11,058 bases of DNA from Candidatus Competibacteraceae bacterium (lineage in GTDB: Bacteria > Pseudomonadota > Gammaproteobacteria > Competibacterales > Competibacteraceae): assembly GCA_020445005.1 (NCBI GenBank), contig JAGRHM010000297.1, positions 1 to 11,058 on the forward strand. The letters run 5' to 3'. How positions within the stretch are numbered: position 1 is the first letter of the stretch; the number at the start of each line of letters is the position of its first letter. The translations under genes and the position numbers were made by a program. Positions 2,401-11,058 of this stretch are shown here, piece after piece. A model generated the notes under the pieces. That model was not told the DNA's origin. It saw nothing but the letters and a program-made list of their open reading frames with translations, and did no database searches.

Positions 2401-4713
2401 TTAGGAAGTGAAATGGACATGCCGTATTCCGCTTTCCACAACCGGTACAGTCTTCATCATCTTGTTATATGGGTTGGCAACTTCCCGCACGAGGCCACAG
2501 ACCTCCATCGGTTTACCGGACATTCCCTCGGGTATCGCAAGCCGTGCTTCTGGGTGGGACGCATACCCTAGCACTTGCGCCTTAATACCGGCCGCCATCA
2601 GATAAAAGGCGTATTCCAAATCACCGTGAAAACACCGGGAATTGGCGACGCTACGGGCGATGACGACATTGCCTTCGCGCGTCGCGCTGACCGCTAGGAG
2701 CGGTTGACCGAGTGGAGACAATGATGCTGTGTTAACAGGCGAACATCCGTTGTTTACCCGGTTTGCATCCTGGAATGCAAAGATCTCTTTAATGATTTTG
2801 GCAGGGCGATATAGTTCGCCGCGACAAACGAATGCAATACGGGTTTTTTCATAGTAGACCGGGTCGCGCAGAAATAACCTGATTAAATGGATACACTCTT
2901 CCGAGGTAGTGAATTGAGGTAGATCGTTGCCAAAGATCAAGGAAGCCGGTGGGTTTTTTTCGCTAACACACAAGGCTCCACAAAAAGCGGCTTCCAAAAT
3001 TCGTCCCTTAAACTGGTAATAGGCAGCGCCACTAATATTAGAAGATTCAGAAAAGTTTAATACGATTTTTGAGCGGCGAAGGTATTCGCATAGTTCAGGG
3101 ATGGATAAGGATCTCTTTTGATCTCCAACATAAGTGACGGAGAATCCAGCCGCCTCTATCCTATAAAGATAATCACTTCTTCCTCCTTTATGGAGTTCAC
3201 CATAAAACAGTATATCAATGTCTCGATAATTGTTTTTATAAAAATACCATTTTTCATGCCCCTCAAGCGGAAGGAAAACTGCTGGCATATTGAGCTCTTG
3301 GTATTTTATCGCGCTTAAGGGGCAAGCGGTAAGTATCAACTCAAAAGGAGCGCTTTTGAGAAAATGCAAATTTTCATTTCGGAAAACAACATCATCGAAT
3401 AGCAAAGGATAAATTTTTCGGCATTGAATTTTCTTATAAAGATCGATAAATTCGCGGTGAAGTTTGGTATATTGTTTGTGTAGTCTTTCCACTCCCAGAA
3501 AAATAACCGAAATTTCTTCCCGAGCTACCACGTCATTAATAAAAAAGGATAAATGATGAATGCCGTCTAGTTTGTTCGCTAATTCAGTCAAATAAAAGAC
3601 CTGGCGAATATCAAAAGTCTCGCTCAGAGAAGAGAGTAAATGATCCTCCCACAGCGGCTTGATCGACAAACACACCAAAGCTTTTGCCTTTCCTTTGGCA
3701 GGAATCCCTACATAACGGCTTTCCATATTCCAATGTCTGGACTCGGTAACGGATTCCTCGTCCAGCTTAACGCCAAGCTGAGCCAATTTTTCCTCGGTCA
3801 GCGAGGCTCTCATCAAGGACGCCATCAGATGCTCCATCGGACGCGCTCTAGCGAATGCGGCCAGGGCGCTTTCAGCGCGCTCACTGAAGTGGCCTTGGGA
3901 CAAACTGATGATGGCGTCATTAACAATATTGCTGGAATACTCTATGTAGGCGTCCAGATCGCATGAGTAATGACAGCGTTCGCTTAACAACAGCGAAGCG
4001 TTGTTCAAATGATAGTGAAAACGGCTATTTGATGGGTATAACCAACCCACATGTTGCCGTAAATTCAGCGCAATTCGAGTGCGAGATAGTAATTGCTCTC
4101 GATGAAAGTGCGCAGTCATGGCCGTCGCTGCATGAACCCGGTATCCCCGGCTTTCCAAATCCGCAAGGATTTGCCGTCGATAAGGCGTCAGGCTACCGGT
4201 GAACAGAAAGTCGATATCGCGTTCGGCATCTGGACGCATAGCGACGCGACGAAAAGCCTTGAGATATCCATGCGGCAAATACTCGACGCGACAGCCGGGC
4301 AGGGCCTCTTGATACACGGGAACCTGATGTTCGGAAAGGTGCCAAATAGCAAGAGCAGATCTACTCAGGCGCAGGAAGTTATGGCAGCGTTTCACCCAAT
4401 AAGCTGAATTGTCATAGTGTATGTCTTTGGTTAAATCCGACGCAGATCTTCTGAAATCGTTAAAGGTGCTACCGGTCAGAAACTCGGTAGCGACAATAAT
4501 GAAATCCGTTCCTTGATCGGCAAGTTGCAATACTTTTTCGGTAAACTGATCATTAAAATTCTCCAGCATAATATTCAGATAGCCAGGCGTTAATTCCCGT
4601 TCAATATCTGCCCGATAACCTGCGCCTTGCAGGCCCCAGAGCATCATGAGCAAGGTATCGGCTATATGAATGCCCGTGTCATGATTTTCATAGACGATCT
4701 TAATCGCTTGCAT
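2401..4713 (-). CDS. Tandem CgeB-like glycosyltransferase (two GT units plus C-terminal tail)
   Basis: 770 residues. Residues 1-310 look like a CgeB / glycosyltransferase group 1-like unit, with an LPHG segment near 146-149, DIDFLFTGSL from 166 and SRTRIALNL at 210-218. Residues about 340-640 repeat the plan: FLPLEG near 480, DIDILFYGEL from 498, RRSKIVLNF at 546-554, then a GRILEAAFCGALCVSE segment from about 570 that is typical of the nucleotide-sugar binding half of GT-B enzymes. Residues about 655-770 form a separate tail of beta-strand character that I do not recognise. No membrane helix or signal peptide is seen, so it is probably cytosolic and would transfer sugars from nucleotide donors. 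The ATG at 4713 has no clear ribosome binding site, but the protein begins in a normal GT-B first strand (KIVYENH). It lies 43 bases after the epimerase and is the last gene of the cluster. Base composition changes sharply inside the gene (see findings). Fold class is fairly sure; substrate is unknown. Confidence 0.8.
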   Translation of the reverse strand: MQAIKIVYENHDTGIHIADTLLMMLWGLQGAGYRADIERELTPGYLNIMLENFNDQFTEKVLQLADQGTDFIIVATEFLTGSTFNDFRRSASDLTKDIHYDNSAYWVKRCHNFLRLSRSALAIWHLSEHQVPVYQEALPGCRVEYLPHGYLKAFRRVAMRPDAERDIDFLFTGSLTPYRRQILADLESRGYRVHAATAMTAHFHREQLLSRTRIALNLRQHVGWLYPSNSRFHYHLNNASLLLSERCHYSCDLDAYIEYSSNIVNDAIISLSQGHFSERAESALAAFARARPMEHLMASLMRASLTEEKLAQLGVKLDEESVTESRHWNMESRYVGIPAKGKAKALVCLSIKPLWEDHLLSSLSETFDIRQVFYLTELANKLDGIHHLSFFINDVVAREEISVIFLGVERLHKQYTKLHREFIDLYKKIQCRKIYPLLFDDVVFRNENLHFLKSAPFELILTACPLSAIKYQELNMPAVFLPLEGHEKWYFYKNNYRDIDILFYGELHKGGRSDYLYRIEAAGFSVTYVGDQKRSLSIPELCEYLRRSKIVLNFSESSNISGAAYYQFKGRILEAAFCGALCVSEKNPPASLIFGNDLPQFTTSEECIHLIRLFLRDPVYYEKTRIAFVCRGELYRPAKIIKEIFAFQDANRVNNGCSPVNTASLSPLGQPLLAVSATREGNVVIARSVANSRCFHGDLEYAFYLMAAGIKAQVLGYASHPEARLAIPEGMSGKPMEVCGLVREVANPYNKMMKTVPVVESGIRHVHFTS

Positions 4714-4756
4714 CGAACTGATTACCGGTTGAGCAAATTTTTTATACTAGCCCAAT

Positions 4757-5695
4757 TTATACATTGCTATAGCTATACTTGCGAATCATCGTATACCCTT
4801 TGATCAACTCCTGAATACCGTCATTCAGAGAGTAAGCCGGATGAAAACCGGTCATCTCAACTTTAGCGTTTGAAACGATATAATTGCGCTGATCAGGATC
4901 CTGTCCAATTGGCGCTTCTAGAAAAACAAAGTCGGGTATATAACATTGGATACGTTGACAAAGCCCCAGCTTGGACAAATTGACGTTGGACAGTCCAACA
5001 TTATAGATCTGTCCGCGCATCGCTTCGAACCGCTCCAACCCGTGCAAAAAAACCCGGGTTACATCGCGCACATGCAGATAATTACGTTTAAAGTGCGCCT
5101 CGAACAGCACCAGGGCGCGGTCGGTGACCGCCCGATAGGTAAAGTCGTTCACCAGCAGATCCATCCGCATGCGCGGTGACATGCCAAAGACCGTCGCTAA
5201 GCGAAAGCTGATCGCGTTTTCATGTTGCAGCAACCGCTGCTCAATCTCCACCTTTTCCCGGGCGTACTGGGAAATCGGGCGTAACGGCGATTCCTCAGTG
5301 CAATCATGCTGTTCATCGCCGGTTCCATAAGCGCTGTTCGTCGTAGGCATCAACACCCGTTGCTGGGGCGACAGCCGATCAAGCATCATTCCAATGGCGT
5401 CAACATTTACCGAGCGCGCGCCAACCGGGTCCCGAGCGCACGCCGGTGCGCCGACAATCGCCGCCAGAGGGATCACGACATCGGCCATAGCCAGTAACGG
5501 GCGCAACGTCGATTCCGCACGGATATCGCCGTTGACCACAGTAAAAGCGGGATGCGTACAGACCGCGGCCAGACTGTTTTGACGATAGAGAAAATTATCC
5601 AGCACCAGTACGCGGTGCCCCTGCCCCAACAGTTCCGGAACCAGAATGGAACCCAGATAACCAGCGCCGCCGGTGACGAGAATAGTGTCGCTCAT
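4757..5695 (-). CDS. NAD-dependent sugar-nucleotide epimerase/dehydratase (extended SDR)
   Basis: 312 residues, a normal length for the extended short-chain dehydrogenase family acting on nucleotide sugars. Visible motifs: the Rossmann glycine motif TGGAGYLGS at 8-16, an acidic Asp at 33 after strand 2 (NAD-type), LAAIVGAP at 77-84, the catalytic set Ser121 (TTNSAYG), Tyr144 and Lys148 (YAREK), and RNYLHVRDV at 204-212, which matches the usual substrate-domain segment. The start is well supported: the ATG overlaps the stop of the upstream nucleotidyltransferase as ATGA, and GGAGGA lies 11 bases ahead. Translational coupling is likely. It probably epimerises, dehydrates or reduces the sugar nucleotide made by that neighbour. 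The exact reaction (4-epimerase, 4,6-dehydratase or 4-reductase) cannot be told from sequence reading. Confidence 0.88.
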   Translation of the reverse strand: MSDTILVTGGAGYLGSILVPELLGQGHRVLVLDNFLYRQNSLAAVCTHPAFTVVNGDIRAESTLRPLLAMADVVIPLAAIVGAPACARDPVGARSVNVDAIGMMLDRLSPQQRVLMPTTNSAYGTGDEQHDCTEESPLRPISQYAREKVEIEQRLLQHENAISFRLATVFGMSPRMRMDLLVNDFTYRAVTDRALVLFEAHFKRNYLHVRDVTRVFLHGLERFEAMRGQIYNVGLSNVNLSKLGLCQRIQCYIPDFVFLEAPIGQDPDQRNYIVSNAKVEMTGFHPAYSLNDGIQELIKGYTMIRKYSYSNV

Positions 5696-6456
5696 GGACT
5701 GAATATTCCTCCAATAGGACCTGGATACGTCTGAGTAGCTTGTATCGTCCAGGGACGTTGAGGTAACAGTTCCCTGGCCCGCCGGTAATCTTCCGGAATC
5801 CCGATGTCAATGAAGAAAGCATCGGTGCGAAAGGCGAACACCATTCGCCCCGCCGCCAGCCAGCCCGGAATCAATTCCTGTTCCAGGGAACTCGGATGCA
5901 GCGGTTCACTAGCCAAATGACGTTCCAGCAAATACACTCCCCCGTTAATCCAGCCTTTTCCCGCTGCGCCATTTGCGTTGAACTGGACAATGCAACCGGT
6001 AGAGTCCAGAGCTAGGGCGCCAAAGCGCGCGTTATTCAACTGGCAACGACAGGCCAGCGTCAGGTCGGCGCAGTGCTTGCGGTGAGCGGCCCGCATAGCG
6101 CAGGCGTCGACGGCAAACAGGGTGTCGCCGTTGATGACCCAGACCGGATCCTCACTCCGGTCCAGCCGTTGCAGGGCTTGGAGCAAGGCTCCGCCCGTGC
6201 CTAGCGGCGTTGATTCTACCGCATAGTCGATCCGTGCACCCCGATAGTCGTTACCTAGTTGCTCAGCAATCATTTGCCAGCGATAGCCCACAGCTAGGAT
6301 GAAGCGACAAATACCCTGCTCGATCCAGAAATCCAGCAAGTGGGTCAGGAAGGGTCGCCCGGCAATGTTCGCCAAGGGTTTGGGTCGATCCGCAACCAGC
6401 GGACGCAGGCGCCGACCCTGACCTCCCGCCAACACGACTGCGGTTTGGACGTCCAT
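5692..6456 (-). CDS. Sugar-1-phosphate nucleotidyltransferase (HddC/RfbA-like)
   Basis: 254 residues from the ATG at 6456; a TTG directly in front at 6459 is a less likely start. The N-terminal LAGGQGRRLRPL (9-20) with RPKPLANIAGRPFL (24-37) is the signature of nucleotidyl transferases that join NTP and a sugar 1-phosphate. Further hallmarks are GTGG at 86-89, the metal-binding NGD at 109-111, INGGVYLL at 170-177 and FIDIGIPEDYRRA at 215-227. Length and the PEDY-RA ending resemble GDP-heptose pyrophosphorylase HddC and mannose-1-phosphate guanylyltransferases, but base and sugar specificity cannot be read off. The start lies 9 bases after the sulfotransferase stop, and the end overlaps the SDR start by four bases (ATGA). 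Together the two enzymes form a sugar-nucleotide pair. The usual heptose partners (isomerase, kinase, phosphatase) are not in the window. Confidence 0.87.
   Translation of the reverse strand: MDVQTAVVLAGGQGRRLRPLVADRPKPLANIAGRPFLTHLLDFWIEQGICRFILAVGYRWQMIAEQLGNDYRGARIDYAVESTPLGTGGALLQALQRLDRSEDPVWVINGDTLFAVDACAMRAAHRKHCADLTLACRCQLNNARFGALALDSTGCIVQFNANGAAGKGWINGGVYLLERHLASEPLHPSSLEQELIPGWLAAGRMVFAFRTDAFFIDIGIPEDYRRARELLPQRPWTIQATQTYPGPIGGIFSP
5707..5712 (-). promoter_or_regulatory. Ribosome binding site of the SDR epimerase gene
   Basis: On the minus strand this reads GGAGGA, 11 bases before the ATG at 5695. It lies inside the end of the nucleotidyltransferase gene and fixes the start codon that forms the ATGA overlap. 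It is the clearest Shine-Dalgarno site in the window. Confidence 0.65.
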
Positions 6457-6465
6457 CAACGCCTG

Positions 6466-7779
6466 CTATGGCCCGGTCAGCAGGCCATTGGCGATATCGT
6501 CGCAAACCAGCGCGCGACAAGCGGGCTCCACTGCACGGAACAGCGACTCGGCGTCAGTAGTCGGGCTTGTAGCCAAGGTTTGTACAATCGCGTTAATTCG
6601 CTGGCATCCCGTTTCGGCGCATTCGAGCACCTCAAGCACCATAGCATCCTCGGTAAAGGTAGAGCGTTCTACATAAGTCCATTGTTTTCCAGGGAAGCTC
6701 TTGAAGTTGAAGGCGCTGGCGTCGATGTTCGATTTGTTGAAACAGAAACCGGCGAGCACTGGATCCTGCATGGGCGCTACCTGTTCACGACGCAGGTAGT
6801 AATCCAGTTCATCCTGGAAGGCGCTGCGCGGACGCGCCGTATGCCAAGCGTCGAGATCGTAGCCAAGCGCTGCCGCTATGTCGACCAGTCCCAGGGCACG
6901 TGCCATGTCGATGTGCGTGGCGTGCAGATGATTCAGCCAGTCGCCGAGAATACCATGATCTTTACGGTAGTTATGTTTATGATACATCAACAGGTTGCGG
7001 TGATCCATAGGGGTCCAGATGGCGTGGGCTTCCTCCGCGCCGATGTCCAGGCCAAGCTGGCGTCCCACCCACTGCACGCTGCCGATCGGATCGGCAATGA
7101 TTGCTTCCCAGCGCCATTCAGCGTAGCGGTCACGGCAGTCCAGATATTCACGCCAGTATTTGAGCTGATGAAGCATCAGTCCTTGGCAAACTCTCAGGTC
7201 AGTGAGCTTATTAAGCGCCATCTCGCGCCGCAGGACGTTCTCGTCAGCTTCGGGACCAAAGCGCTGGAGGTACTCGCTGGTCAGGGCATTAAATGAATGA
7301 ACAGCGGAATTGAACATATCCAAAGGATGACGAATCGTGGCGAAGCGTATGCATTCGGCGTAGTCTGGTTCGTCAGTCCAACGTTGGGGGGTTTCGTGCG
7401 AATGGTAGATGCCATAGTATTCAAACAGTAGTTTGGGATGCTGGGTGACCAGCAGAAAGTCGCCATAACCACGACAACCGATGTATTTGCGCACGGCCAT
7501 CCATGGCTTGCCGGGGACCAGCCATTTGGGTCCGCCCACCAGCAGTTGAAATTCGCCATTGAACAGCAGCTCGTCGCCAAGACCCTGCTTGGCAAAAACC
7601 GCAGAGTACGACCTGTTAAGAACATAGGAAAAAAAAGGCATCAACCGAATGATCGCCTGTTGTTTCGGTATACGGGCGAAAGCTATGTGTCGATGATCGA
7701 GAATGCGCTGAATCATGGTGATCAGCAGGGAAAATCCGGAGCGGGGCGGTCCGATGACCACAACGGGCGAAATAGTCAT
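6466..7779 (-). CDS. PAPS-dependent sulfotransferase with C-terminal extension
   Basis: 437 residues. Three sulfotransferase signatures appear in order: the 5'-phosphosulfate loop GPPRSGFSLL at 10-19, the 3'-phosphate motif RHPLDMFNS at 150-158 (Arg150, Ser158), and a late RKDHGILGDW at 272-281, close to the RKGxxGDWK motif that also contacts PAPS. These predict transfer of sulfate from 3'-phosphoadenylyl sulfate to a hydroxyl or amino group, here probably on a sugar or glycan given the neighbours. Residues from about 310 on form an extra region of roughly 125 residues beyond the usual 260-300 residue domain; I do not recognise it. No signal peptide or membrane segment is clear. The ATG at 7779 starts right at the first strand (MTISPVVVIGPPRSG), which fits well although no good ribosome binding site precedes it. 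It lies 26 bases after the upstream sulfotransferase-like gene. Confidence 0.85.
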   Translation of the reverse strand: MTISPVVVIGPPRSGFSLLITMIQRILDHRHIAFARIPKQQAIIRLMPFFSYVLNRSYSAVFAKQGLGDELLFNGEFQLLVGGPKWLVPGKPWMAVRKYIGCRGYGDFLLVTQHPKLLFEYYGIYHSHETPQRWTDEPDYAECIRFATIRHPLDMFNSAVHSFNALTSEYLQRFGPEADENVLRREMALNKLTDLRVCQGLMLHQLKYWREYLDCRDRYAEWRWEAIIADPIGSVQWVGRQLGLDIGAEEAHAIWTPMDHRNLLMYHKHNYRKDHGILGDWLNHLHATHIDMARALGLVDIAAALGYDLDAWHTARPRSAFQDELDYYLRREQVAPMQDPVLAGFCFNKSNIDASAFNFKSFPGKQWTYVERSTFTEDAMVLEVLECAETGCQRINAIVQTLATSPTTDAESLFRAVEPACRALVCDDIANGLLTGP

Positions 7780-7805
7780 AAGCAGGAATATCCAGAACAG
7801 GGACG

Positions 7806-8666
7806 TCAGTCGAGTGGGTACCCAGCGGTAGCGAACACTTCGCCATAGGGTTGCGCCACCAGGATATCGAAAGCGGCCTGATGGTGCGACGCCCAGGCGG
7901 CGCGGATTGCTTTGGGTTCACGCAAGGCTTGCGGGCTGCGGTGATTGTTGATGGAGCCTTGCGCGATGAAGCGATCTAGGGTTGCCTCGTTATAAGCGAA
8001 TCCGCTAACTTTGCGGCAGAAATCGGCCAGGTAGCCGGCATCTGAAGTGAGCGTTTCCATCTGAAACAGGGGCAGGGGGTATCTGGCGATATCTTTCGCC
8101 TGGTCGATCACCGAAAAACAACTGATCAGAAAGGCGCGATCCAGGGCGGTCGCGTAGCACGGCATATCCAGAACGCCAAGCGCTTCCAGATAGGGAAGAA
8201 CCTGATCAGTGTACATTGTTGCATAATGCTGTTCGAGTTCCGCAAAATGTTTTGCATGCATGACAACAGCGTTGTGGCAATCGACAAAACCGATGGGGTT
8301 CCTGATGAGATTCACGACGGTTATCGACATCTCGTTAAAATCGCTTTTTGCATATAATTCCCCAGGCACAAAGCTATGCACATTACCGTAAGCTTCAGCG
8401 TCAGGATAAATTTCGCGGTAACGCGCATACAACGCTTTAAGCGAAGCGCTCTTGATCCATGAAAAGGCTTCCCTGCCGCGTTGCAGCGCGTCGAAATTCT
8501 CGGTTTCCTTGCCGATAGGGCGCTCGATCTCGAAGTTTCCCTTTATAATTGAATCAAGCGGGTAAGTACCATGCGCCACAAACACCCGTGGGTCGGAGGC
8601 GAGGACAAAGCTGGTCCAACGGCTGGCGGACAAGCCATAGCAGGTGACGCAAAAATCAGTGGCCAT
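7806..8666 (-). CDS. Sulfotransferase-like protein with degenerate phosphosulfate loop
   Basis: 286 residues, the length of a plain sulfotransferase domain. The N-terminus (CVTCYGLSASRWTSFVLAS, 6-24) occupies the place of the phosphosulfate loop, but it lacks the usual G-x-x-(R/K)-S-G/T-(S/T) form: the basic residue sits at Arg16 and no GxGKS-like core is present. VVNLIRNPIGFVDCHNAVV at 117-135 aligns with the 3'-phosphate motif (Arg122), with Cys or Asn where a Ser is expected. The C-terminal W-hhqaafdil-YGEVFATAGY pattern also fits the fold. It is first in the minus-strand cluster, 26 bases ahead of the clear sulfotransferase, so the two may act together. The ATG at 8666 begins the first strand, but no Shine-Dalgarno site is visible. 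It could be an active divergent sulfotransferase, an inactive partner, or another P-loop-fold enzyme. Confidence 0.6.
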   Translation of the reverse strand: MATDFCVTCYGLSASRWTSFVLASDPRVFVAHGTYPLDSIIKGNFEIERPIGKETENFDALQRGREAFSWIKSASLKALYARYREIYPDAEAYGNVHSFVPGELYAKSDFNEMSITVVNLIRNPIGFVDCHNAVVMHAKHFAELEQHYATMYTDQVLPYLEALGVLDMPCYATALDRAFLISCFSVIDQAKDIARYPLPLFQMETLTSDAGYLADFCRKVSGFAYNEATLDRFIAQGSINNHRSPQALREPKAIRAAWASHHQAAFDILVAQPYGEVFATAGYPLD

Positions 8667-8765: not shown

Positions 8766-9665
8766 ATGACGGATCATGTGTTTTCTCCCCTTGGCGGCCT
8801 TTCCATCATCATCCCAGTTTATAATAGCGCAGCCACGCTGCCGGAGCTGATTGAACGCCTCAATACGGTTTTCGCTAAAGACGCCTTGCCTTTTGAGCTG
8901 ATTTTGGTGAACGACGGCAGCGAGGACGATAGCTGGCGCGTGATCGTCCGGCTGGCGGAATGCTTCGAGAGGGTGCGCGGCGTCAATCTCGCCGGCAACT
9001 TTGGCCAACACAGCGCCTTGCTTTGCGGAATCCTGCGGGCGCGTCATGGCGTAATTGTGACGCTGGACGATGATCTTCAACATCCGCCGGAGGAGATTCC
9101 CAAACTGCTCCGCGCCCTGCGGGACGATGTGGATGTCGTGTATGGCCTACCCATGCACCGGCGGCACACGGCGTGGCGCGTGGCGGCGTCGTGGATCATG
9201 GTGCAAATCGCGCGGGCTGGCGGACCCGGCGGCGCGTATCGACCTTCCGCGTTCCGCGTATTTCGGACACGCTTGCGCGAAGCGTTTGCCGATCCTGGCG
9301 GTAATCGGGTCGCTATCGATGCCCTGTTGGGTCGGAGTACGACACGCTTCGCTACTGTAGAAATCGAGCATCATCCACGATTCGTAGGGCATTCCCGCTA
9401 TAATCTCCGGCGACTGACCCAATTAGCCATTGATAATATCATGGCGTTCGGTCTACTCCCGCCGTGGCTCGTTCGCTGGAGCAAGCGGTTGCGCTGGCTG
9501 GTGGGAAGCCGTGACCCGAGCGCGAATTGTTCCCGGTATGTTGTTGCTAGGACTACGGAAGATACCCTATCTGTCGATTCCTTTATCTTTGAATCACCTT
9601 ACCTGATTGCCCCGAATCGCTTCGCTACACGGTCCGGCGTCGAATGTAATACCAATTCTCATTAG
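8766..9665 (+). CDS. Family 2 glycosyltransferase, polyprenyl-phosphate type, lacking its usual C-terminal membrane helices
   Basis: 299 residues. The GT-A domain is intact to eye: LSIIIPVYN at 12-20, LVNDGSEDDSW at 47-57, NFGQHSALLCGI at 78-89, the metal-binding DDDLQHPPEEI at 101-111, SAFRVFRTRLREAF at 161-174, and HHPRFVGHSRYNLRRL at 202-217. This pattern belongs to the DPM1/ArnC/GtrB-like group, which moves a sugar from a nucleotide donor to a polyprenyl phosphate at the inner membrane. Members normally continue with two membrane helices and about 80-90 more residues. Here the sequence after about 235 is polar (WSKRLRWLVGSRDPSANCSRY), with no hydrophobic helix, and then SRYVVARTTEDTL resembles the usual C-terminal tail. 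The gene therefore looks internally deleted or otherwise damaged at the 3' end. It faces away from the sulfotransferase cluster and precedes the membrane-protein gene. Confidence 0.82.
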   Translation: MTDHVFSPLGGLSIIIPVYNSAATLPELIERLNTVFAKDALPFELILVNDGSEDDSWRVIVRLAECFERVRGVNLAGNFGQHSALLCGILRARHGVIVTLDDDLQHPPEEIPKLLRALRDDVDVVYGLPMHRRHTAWRVAASWIMVQIARAGGPGGAYRPSAFRVFRTRLREAFADPGGNRVAIDALLGRSTTRFATVEIEHHPRFVGHSRYNLRRLTQLAIDNIMAFGLLPPWLVRWSKRLRWLVGSRDPSANCSRYVVARTTEDTLSVDSFIFESPYLIAPNRFATRSGVECNTNSH

Positions 9666-9763
9666 GTTTAATTCGAAAAAACGGTGTGAACTGCCAAGAC
9701 GCTAGCCTCCATTCTTCTGTGAAAACAAATATCTAGTTGATTGAATATTTAAGTACGAAATAG
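9666..9763. other. 98-base intergenic gap between glycosyltransferase and membrane protein
   Basis: No terminator hairpin, convincing promoter or mobile-element end is visible. The gap marks the switch from GC-rich sequence on the left (34 G/C of 60 at 9301-9360) to strongly AT-rich sequence on the right. It could be a recombination boundary, but no repeat supports this directly. Confidence 0.4.
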
Positions 9764-10006
9764 ATGAATTATTCTATGAAAAATTTAGCATTTTTTTTAA
9801 CGATTTTTTGTCGCATAAAATTAATTTTTCATTATTTAACTTCCGCTTTGACTAATAATATATTTTTGATGACGCTTGTCTATGGTTCGTTTATTTTATC
9901 AATAATTTCTTTGTTTATTCGGTATGATATGCGTTTTATTGACTCCGATATTATGTATCTACCGACTCTTTACAATGATTTAACAAAATGGGGAGGCAAT
10001 TTTTGA
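9764..10006 (+). CDS. N-terminal fragment of the interrupted membrane protein
   Basis: 80 residues ending at TGA 10004-10006. It holds a hydrophobic helix at about 33-52 and the acidic loop RFIDSDIMYLPTLYNDL. It ends immediately before the PAPYYFPDM segment, so it would not function alone as a multi-spanning protein. Confidence 0.5.
   Translation: MNYSMKNLAFFLTIFCRIKLIFHYLTSALTNNIFLMTLVYGSFILSIISLFIRYDMRFIDSDIMYLPTLYNDLTKWGGNF
10004..10006 (+). other. In-frame TGA inside a continuous membrane-protein reading frame
   Basis: This TGA separates GGNF from EWRLTPAPYYFPDM in the same frame. A change from TCA, TTA, TGG, CGA, GGA or TGC/TGT by one base would produce it. A six-pair hairpin with one G-U pair (10009-10014 with 10026-10031, 11-base loop) follows, but it does not resemble a known bacterial selenocysteine element. 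Confidence 0.8.
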
Positions 10007-10045
10007 GAGTGGAGATTGACTCCTGCTCCATACTATTTCCCTGAT

Positions 10046-11058
10046 ATGTTAATATTTTTTTCTATTAATTATATTTTTAATAACTTTTTAATTTCTTTAA
10101 CTATTATGCAAATCATTCAGATTTTTTTTTATGTTTATGGGTGGTTTTTTTTATATAACATTTTAAATAAAGACAAATTAGAAAATCCTCTACCTTTGCC
10201 TTGCCTCTCCCTTTTTGCTTTTTCGTCTACTATGATATTTTTTTATAAGGATTTCAGTTTAATAATCAAGCCGTTCTCTTACATAAGTTATCACTTCGGA
10301 ATAGCACTTTCAACACCATATTTTATTGCCATAATTTCGGTTTTTTTATTTCATGAATTCAGTAAAATAAATAGGATTTTTCTATACGGTTTGATTTTTA
10401 TTTTTACATTCATTTTAACTGCTTCCGATCTACTCTTCGTGGTTCAAGTTTCTCTACCATGTATACTGACACTGTTTTTTTTAACATGGATTGATCCGAA
10501 GGTTAATCGTAAATACATATTTGTGTTGACGGGATGGATTGTCCTGGGATCAGTCTGCGGTTTTCTCGTCAAATTCACTAAAGATATTGTCCTGTCCTAT
10601 ACTGTCTTCAAGGGGGGGAGTGGTTATAAACCGGAATTGATAGTCCGATCTATCGATAATATGCGTATATGGATTGAACATTCTATTGAAAATAATCCTG
10701 TTGCCATTGGAATAGTCGCATTATCGTTGGTAGTTGAGTTAGTAATAGTTTTGTTAGGTGTATATCGTTTGCTTAGCAGAAAATCATTTCCAATGCCTGT
10801 TTTTACGATCTGCCTTTTTATAATGTTGTCAGTAGCTTTAAACTGTTCTGCCATTATCCTAGTGGGGATGTTTCCTGACCCTCGTACTTCACGGTATATA
10901 TATACGCTGATAATAATTTCTCCTTTTTTTTTACCATTTTTTACTGTTTTTTTAGAGAGAAATTTCCTCTTCAAGATAGTATTGTCGATTACTGGGGTAT
11001 TTATCTCTATATCTTCAATTATTCAATTCGATAATTTCAAATCATTAAAAAGGTACTC
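10046..11058 (+). CDS. C-terminal open segment of the interrupted membrane protein, partial at window edge
   Basis: The frame after the TGA stays open from 10007 to the right edge with no further stop. The first ATG in it is at 10046 (MLIFFSINYIF). No clear ribosome binding site is seen in front, although reinitiation after the TGA 40 bases earlier is possible. The translation is dominated by long hydrophobic runs separated by short loops, such as the GGSGYKPELIVRSIDNMRIWIEH loop near 10612-10680 and FPDPRTSRYIY near 10870-10902. A run of seven G at 10612-10618 does not break the frame. Confidence 0.55.
   Translation, partial: MLIFFSINYIFNNFLISLTIMQIIQIFFYVYGWFFLYNILNKDKLENPLPLPCLSLFAFSSTMIFFYKDFSLIIKPFSYISYHFGIALSTPYFIAIISVFLFHEFSKINRIFLYGLIFIFTFILTASDLLFVVQVSLPCILTLFFLTWIDPKVNRKYIFVLTGWIVLGSVCGFLVKFTKDIVLSYTVFKGGSGYKPELIVRSIDNMRIWIEHSIENNPVAIGIVALSLVVELVIVLLGVYRLLSRKSFPMPVFTICLFIMLSVALNCSAIILVGMFPDPRTSRYIYTLIIISPFFLPFFTVFLERNFLFKIVLSITGVFISISSIIQFDNFKSLKRY

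Follow-up and report, generated by a model that had tools for sequence, protein, structure and literature searches.

UGA is described as a leaky stop codon in bacteria, and in-frame stops with signs of purifying selection have been reported to be widespread, although most of them are concluded to be short-lived (Belinky et al., 2021; PMC7918605). The gene discussed in this work carries an in-frame UGA and belongs to a family of predicted membrane glycosyltransferases. It lies at the 3' end of an 11,058-nucleotide stretch of DNA from an uncultured, environmental Candidatus Competibacteraceae bacterium, which we refer to as the window and which represents the whole contig C266 (JAGRHM010000297.1) of the draft genome G000 (GCA_020445005.1; 3.88 Mb, 855 contigs, 75.6% complete). 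On the plus strand, positions 9764-11056 form a frame of 431 codons that contains a single stop, TGA at 10004-10006 (codon 81), and our recount agrees in this respect with the original prediction made for this DNA. The explanation that we favour, and regard as fairly probable, is that a GT-C-fold gene, probably acquired, has been broken by a single recent nonsense substitution, which is possibly polymorphic.

Besides the position of the stop, our data allow insights into the relation of the two gene pieces. The upstream piece (9764-10006, plus strand) consists of 80 codons and the TGA and covers the first transmembrane helix together with the first half of the first large loop, while the downstream piece of the same gene (10007-11058, plus strand), which begins directly 3' of the TGA with EWRLTPAPYYFPDM, stays open to the contig end. 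Using a profile of 46 homologues from which the window protein was excluded, we found that residues 38-80 of the upstream piece match positions 14-59 (expect value, E, 3.8e-6), and that the 350 downstream residues match positions 61-380 from their first residue on (E 1.9e-36). The best value among 1000 shuffled controls (500 per piece) was E 0.053; on their own, residues 38-80 reached E 9e-7, whereas 1000 shuffled versions gave E 0.02 at best, and an additional hit obtained with the upstream piece is noise (1.6 bits, E 4.8). Since both pieces adjoin on the profile with only position 60 between them, the TGA, as judged from this alignment, occupies exactly one family position without insertion or deletion. 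The claim that a polytopic membrane gene is split within a conserved loop is thus borne out by the profile, and at the level of sequence comparison it is confirmed that the interrupted conserved gene is more than a chance observation.

The same picture emerges from a paralogue on contig C650 of the same genome, which is 32% identical and has an open loop without a stop. A BLASTP comparison of this paralogue with the read-through frame (X at the stop) crosses the stop with E 9e-16 in this single comparison, and the sequence after the TGA can indeed be read as the natural continuation of the loop. Aligned together, the window protein and its paralogue reached 35 proteins, one of which (P0003) represents part of the window, as well as 34 distinct genome loci; 61 proteins were reached with a broader alignment. 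Including the paralogue was required for this: the downstream piece as the only query found nothing at E 0.001 among 4270 candidate proteins and detected no relative in the genome contigs, and a single-sequence search of relatives gave no match in 95 genomes other than the window's own. In viral contigs, 42 stretches fit a pattern and none of them encodes a relative, and no near-identical intact copy of the gene was among the matches listed (8000 candidates scored per search).

What the relatives carry at the stop position was followed in two samples. The patterns of the locus scan flank the position without spanning it, so that stops at this place were not directly selected against, and a sense codon is present at it in each of the 34 homologous genome loci. 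Homologues ending or starting at the stop, which had been named as evidence against a split gene, were not found among these loci, all 34 of which read through. In the second sample, 113 of 119 sequences fit a segment pattern (P0077, P0079, P0080, P0084, P0085 and P0086 did not and were left out; P0003 had been excluded beforehand) and yielded 109 distinct segments, 108 besides that of the window. The loop is continuous across the position in all sequences fitting the pattern, and the residues found there in the 108 other segments are S (35), A (28), G (10), K and R (7 each), Q and L (5 each), N (3), T, H and W (2 each), and M and F (1 each). Neither a stop nor a cysteine occurs at the position in any of these 108 segments; the proteins among them stem from predicted-protein collections, in which stops are impossible, which makes the genome loci the fairer sample. 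A search for the same TGA in related genomes, proposed as a further check, found it in none of the relatives examined. Stops that had been flagged within matches in two sister genomes turned out to be natural gene ends (in G002 that of the family-2 glycosyltransferase gene, in G001 that of the family member). As a separate observation, the member found in the class genome G331 (contig C23; L079, L082) is apparently frameshifted at or just after the conserved loop, which may be real or an error.

With regard to function, the membrane gene product is probably a GT-C-fold membrane glycosyltransferase, and probably a sugar-attaching one, as structure prediction assigns the GT-C glycosyltransferase fold to an intact homologue with high confidence. 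A defining feature of GT-C enzymes is a conserved acidic residue in the first large loop, past the first membrane helix. Asp 62 of the window frame (codon 62, 9947-9949, plus strand, upstream piece) is invariant in all 36 rows of the family alignment A2, and its equivalent in the modelled homologue, D48, is invariant in A3 and A4 and starts a helix (47-61) that follows the helix 14-35. The TGA itself lies at a variable family position, mostly Ser or Ala, two codons 5' of an invariant Trp, and the TPAPY(Y/F)FPD motif follows in the downstream piece (10019-10045, plus strand). According to the predicted structure of the intact homologue, the stop splits the first large loop and separates the invariant Asp from the remainder of the enzyme. 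At E 0.01, Pfam gave for the 36 A2 members only Y_Y_Y in one member (E 0.008) and no GT-C model, NCBIfam gave no match for the 46 A4 members, and a sequence search of solved structures (PDB) found no match to the family. With profiles, members of the family turned up in 2 of 39 genomes of the bacterial family (E 0.001) and in 6 of 369 genomes of the class (E 1e-10), the window genome being counted in both cases. Its scattered members are mostly membrane proteins of 500-700 residues with motifs like SDALYLP and DW.LTPAPYFFPD (L010-L043, L052, P0004-P0086), and their record titles include Gammaproteobacteria, Duganella, Legionella and Myxococcaceae as well as Firmicutes, Spirochaetaceae, Flavobacteriales and Omnitrophota.

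Since the contig extends no further than 11058, 1052 bases past the TGA, the window gene is 3'-truncated with its natural end outside the window. Its last 57 bases (11002-11058, plus strand) overlap with an end of C370, another contig of the same genome, with 54 of 57 positions identical. This end of C370 encodes a C-terminal part of the family, which includes an F5/8 type C domain (E 3.6e-15) and ends after 296 codons at a natural stop, and, judged by the overlap, it is the probable continuation of the window gene. The C-terminal extensions vary within the family: the C370 copy (L055) has the F5/8 type C domain, and homologues of about 640 residues carry a different extension.

If the nonsense substitution is the correct explanation, release factor 2 (RF2) would terminate translation at codon 81, and the remaining fragment, with a single membrane helix and the first large loop only in half, could not function as an enzyme. 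That the frame is otherwise intact would mean either that time has been too short for more damage to accumulate or that the stop is only one of the variants present in the population. In this scenario we infer loss of function, a recent age, a substitution as the cause and a horizontal origin of the gene. We favour a recent mutation because the remaining frame is free of stops despite a guanine-cytosine (GC) content of about 30% in the gene: no other stop is present in its 431 codons within the window, and the claim that the downstream frame has stayed open for more than 1 kb despite its high A+T content holds. Assuming equal substitution rates and no selection, the lack of a further stop limits the change since inactivation to less than about 0.05 substitutions per site, or 0.03 if the C370 part is included. 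Several points weigh against this explanation. The base that makes the TGA relies on the consensus of an 855-contig draft with scaffold gaps, and a sequence error or readthrough of the stop would leave an equally intact remainder. Moreover, the overlap with C370 is inexact, and its three mismatches sit in two codons with both amino acids altered, so C370 may also represent a close paralogue, a variant from a different strain or a contig end prone to errors.

Among the causes offered by the original prediction, recent mutation and sequence error remain, whereas recoding is unsupported and leaky readthrough finds little favour. An artefact of consensus or assembly, for example through mixed strain haplotypes or a wrongly called base close to a contig end with low coverage, would leave an intact gene in the organism; we consider this unlikely, although it is the alternative to be taken most seriously. 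Apart from the draft state and incompleteness of the genome, it is supported by scaffold N gaps within prfB and where the C650 paralogue starts, by the proximity of the contig end to the stop, and by the C370 overlap, which suggests strain variation or end errors. However, the remaining frame has no other stop or frameshift, the other main genes of the window are open, with a Pfam family in six of the seven tested, and single wrong consensus bases are generally less frequent than genuine nonsense variants of accessory genes. Far less probable is a split gene in which translation stops at the TGA and restarts at an in-frame TTG (10016) or ATG (10046), with both pieces assembling afterwards. The TTG is located nine bases past the stop codon, and a GGGGAGG run is present at 9990-9996, but this run is 19 bases away from the TTG and encodes part of the conserved Gly region of the family. 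In addition, the downstream piece would lack the first membrane helix, and none of the 34 homologous loci is split at this position.

Readthrough can be envisaged in two forms. As a leaky stop, the UGA would be read at a low level by a near-cognate tRNA, so that little full-length GT-C enzyme is made, the frame stays under selection and the surface glycan is kept low by a tolerated, expression-lowering codon. We regard this as improbable. It could draw on the leakiness of UGA and the widespread selected in-frame stops mentioned above (PMC7918605), and on the Trp found at the position in 2 of the 108 other segments, according to which Trp would be tolerated. On the other hand, the same article regards most such stops as short-lived, no relative examined shares the TGA, and the RNA structure after it is unremarkable. 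When four stretches around the stop were folded, the 45 nucleotides from the TGA formed a small predicted hairpin with a z-score of -1.84, and the stretch with a z-score of -3.03 holds the stop codon within its own stem and loop and not upstream of a structure. In the folding scan, the 41-nucleotide stretch starting at the TGA ranked 37 of 418, and the best stretches near the stop (rank 6 of 418 for 41 nucleotides, rank 20 of 411 for 60 nucleotides) are not exceptional; the window has no Rfam match at gathering score. The second form, programmed recoding by selenocysteine or by a genome- or gene-specific reassignment of TGA, has nothing in its favour except a TGA codon and an open frame beyond it; it is the least probable of all explanations and very unlikely on the genomic evidence, and selenocysteine decoding in particular is unlikely. 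A SECIS hairpin would be expected just after the TGA of a selenoprotein, and the structure predicted at this place is the small, unremarkable hairpin described above. The proposed search for selenocysteine machinery was negative: a selB match over the cut-off was found in none of the six genomes of the genus, four of which are at least 90% complete (G000 with its 75.6% being less so), and matches below the cut-off appeared in all six but likewise in 14 of 14 controls. Three matches to the selenocysteine tRNA model RF01852 in the incomplete G000, one of them just over the cut-off, were identified by ARAGORN as Ser, Ser and Leu tRNAs. The tRNA survey of the host yielded only 12 matches (11 called by ARAGORN); none of them has a TCA anticodon, and a tRNA-Trp is not among them. 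All six Trp codons of the membrane gene are TGG, and TGA occurs once in its 431 codons. RF2 is encoded, with prfB in two pieces interrupted only by a 9-N scaffold gap and containing a CTTTGA site, which we take to be of the kind known from RF2 autoregulation. The gap in this gene (L056, contig C131) is apparently of the wrong length, which gives prfB a frameshifted look.

Concerning the origin of the interrupted gene, it is probably an acquired accessory gene, and its A+T-rich composition is in keeping with a horizontal origin. So are the sister genomes, which diverge downstream of a shared stretch: their DNA is 81-82% identical to the window up to 9489 (G001) or 9584 (G002), and beyond it G002 carries an amino-acid permease and G001 a resolvase fragment. 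The shared part includes most of a family-2 glycosyltransferase (GT2) gene (8766-9665, plus strand), which is common to the two sister genomes up to about these positions. The GC content is 26-37% in windows within 9801-11000 and mostly 44-67% in the rest of the contig, but other dips to 35-43% near 3001-3800 and 4401-5000 mean that low GC is not unique to the membrane gene. The adjacent GT2 gene was rejected as a functional partner, since a match to it at E 0.01 was found in none of 738 frames of at least 120 codons from the 34 homologue loci and the C370 locus, whereas the self-control gave one. At the end of the GT2 gene and past it, 5' of the membrane gene, lies a dispersed repeat of about 50-60 bases (9638-9709), which has three copies at 80-83% in G001 (C501, C505, C126) and is perhaps the end of an insertion sequence or a small mobile repeat. 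The remaining contig contains, by Pfam, a frame with FG-GAP repeats (3-2327) and glycan-type genes on the minus strand (2401-8666), namely glycosyltransferase-like, epimerase, nucleotidyltransferase and sulfotransferase-like genes; the frame 7806-8666 has no Pfam match.

Taken as a recent nonsense mutation, the in-frame TGA of the window gene requires no new biology. What it brings to light is a recently interrupted accessory gene from a family that is scattered over many phyla, predicted to be of the GT-C type and without a curated model in the libraries searched. Should readthrough be true after all, the locus would represent a glycan enzyme held at a low level by a leaky stop.

In comparison with known systems, the locus resembles bacterial selenoproteins in having an in-frame TGA with homology continuing past it, but differs from them by the lack of a SelB over the cut-off, of a tRNA-Sec in G000 and of Cys in the homologues. 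With the in-frame stops in otherwise intact bacterial genes (PMC7918605), it shares a single stop within an open conserved frame, whereas no orthologue sharing the stop was found for the window gene. At the level of the protein, the nearest solved fold to the family is ArnT (5f15, 5ezm), followed by OST/PglB/AglB, PMT and Emb/Aft; ArnT differs in that its sequence identity to the modelled homologue is 8% and in that the window copy is interrupted.
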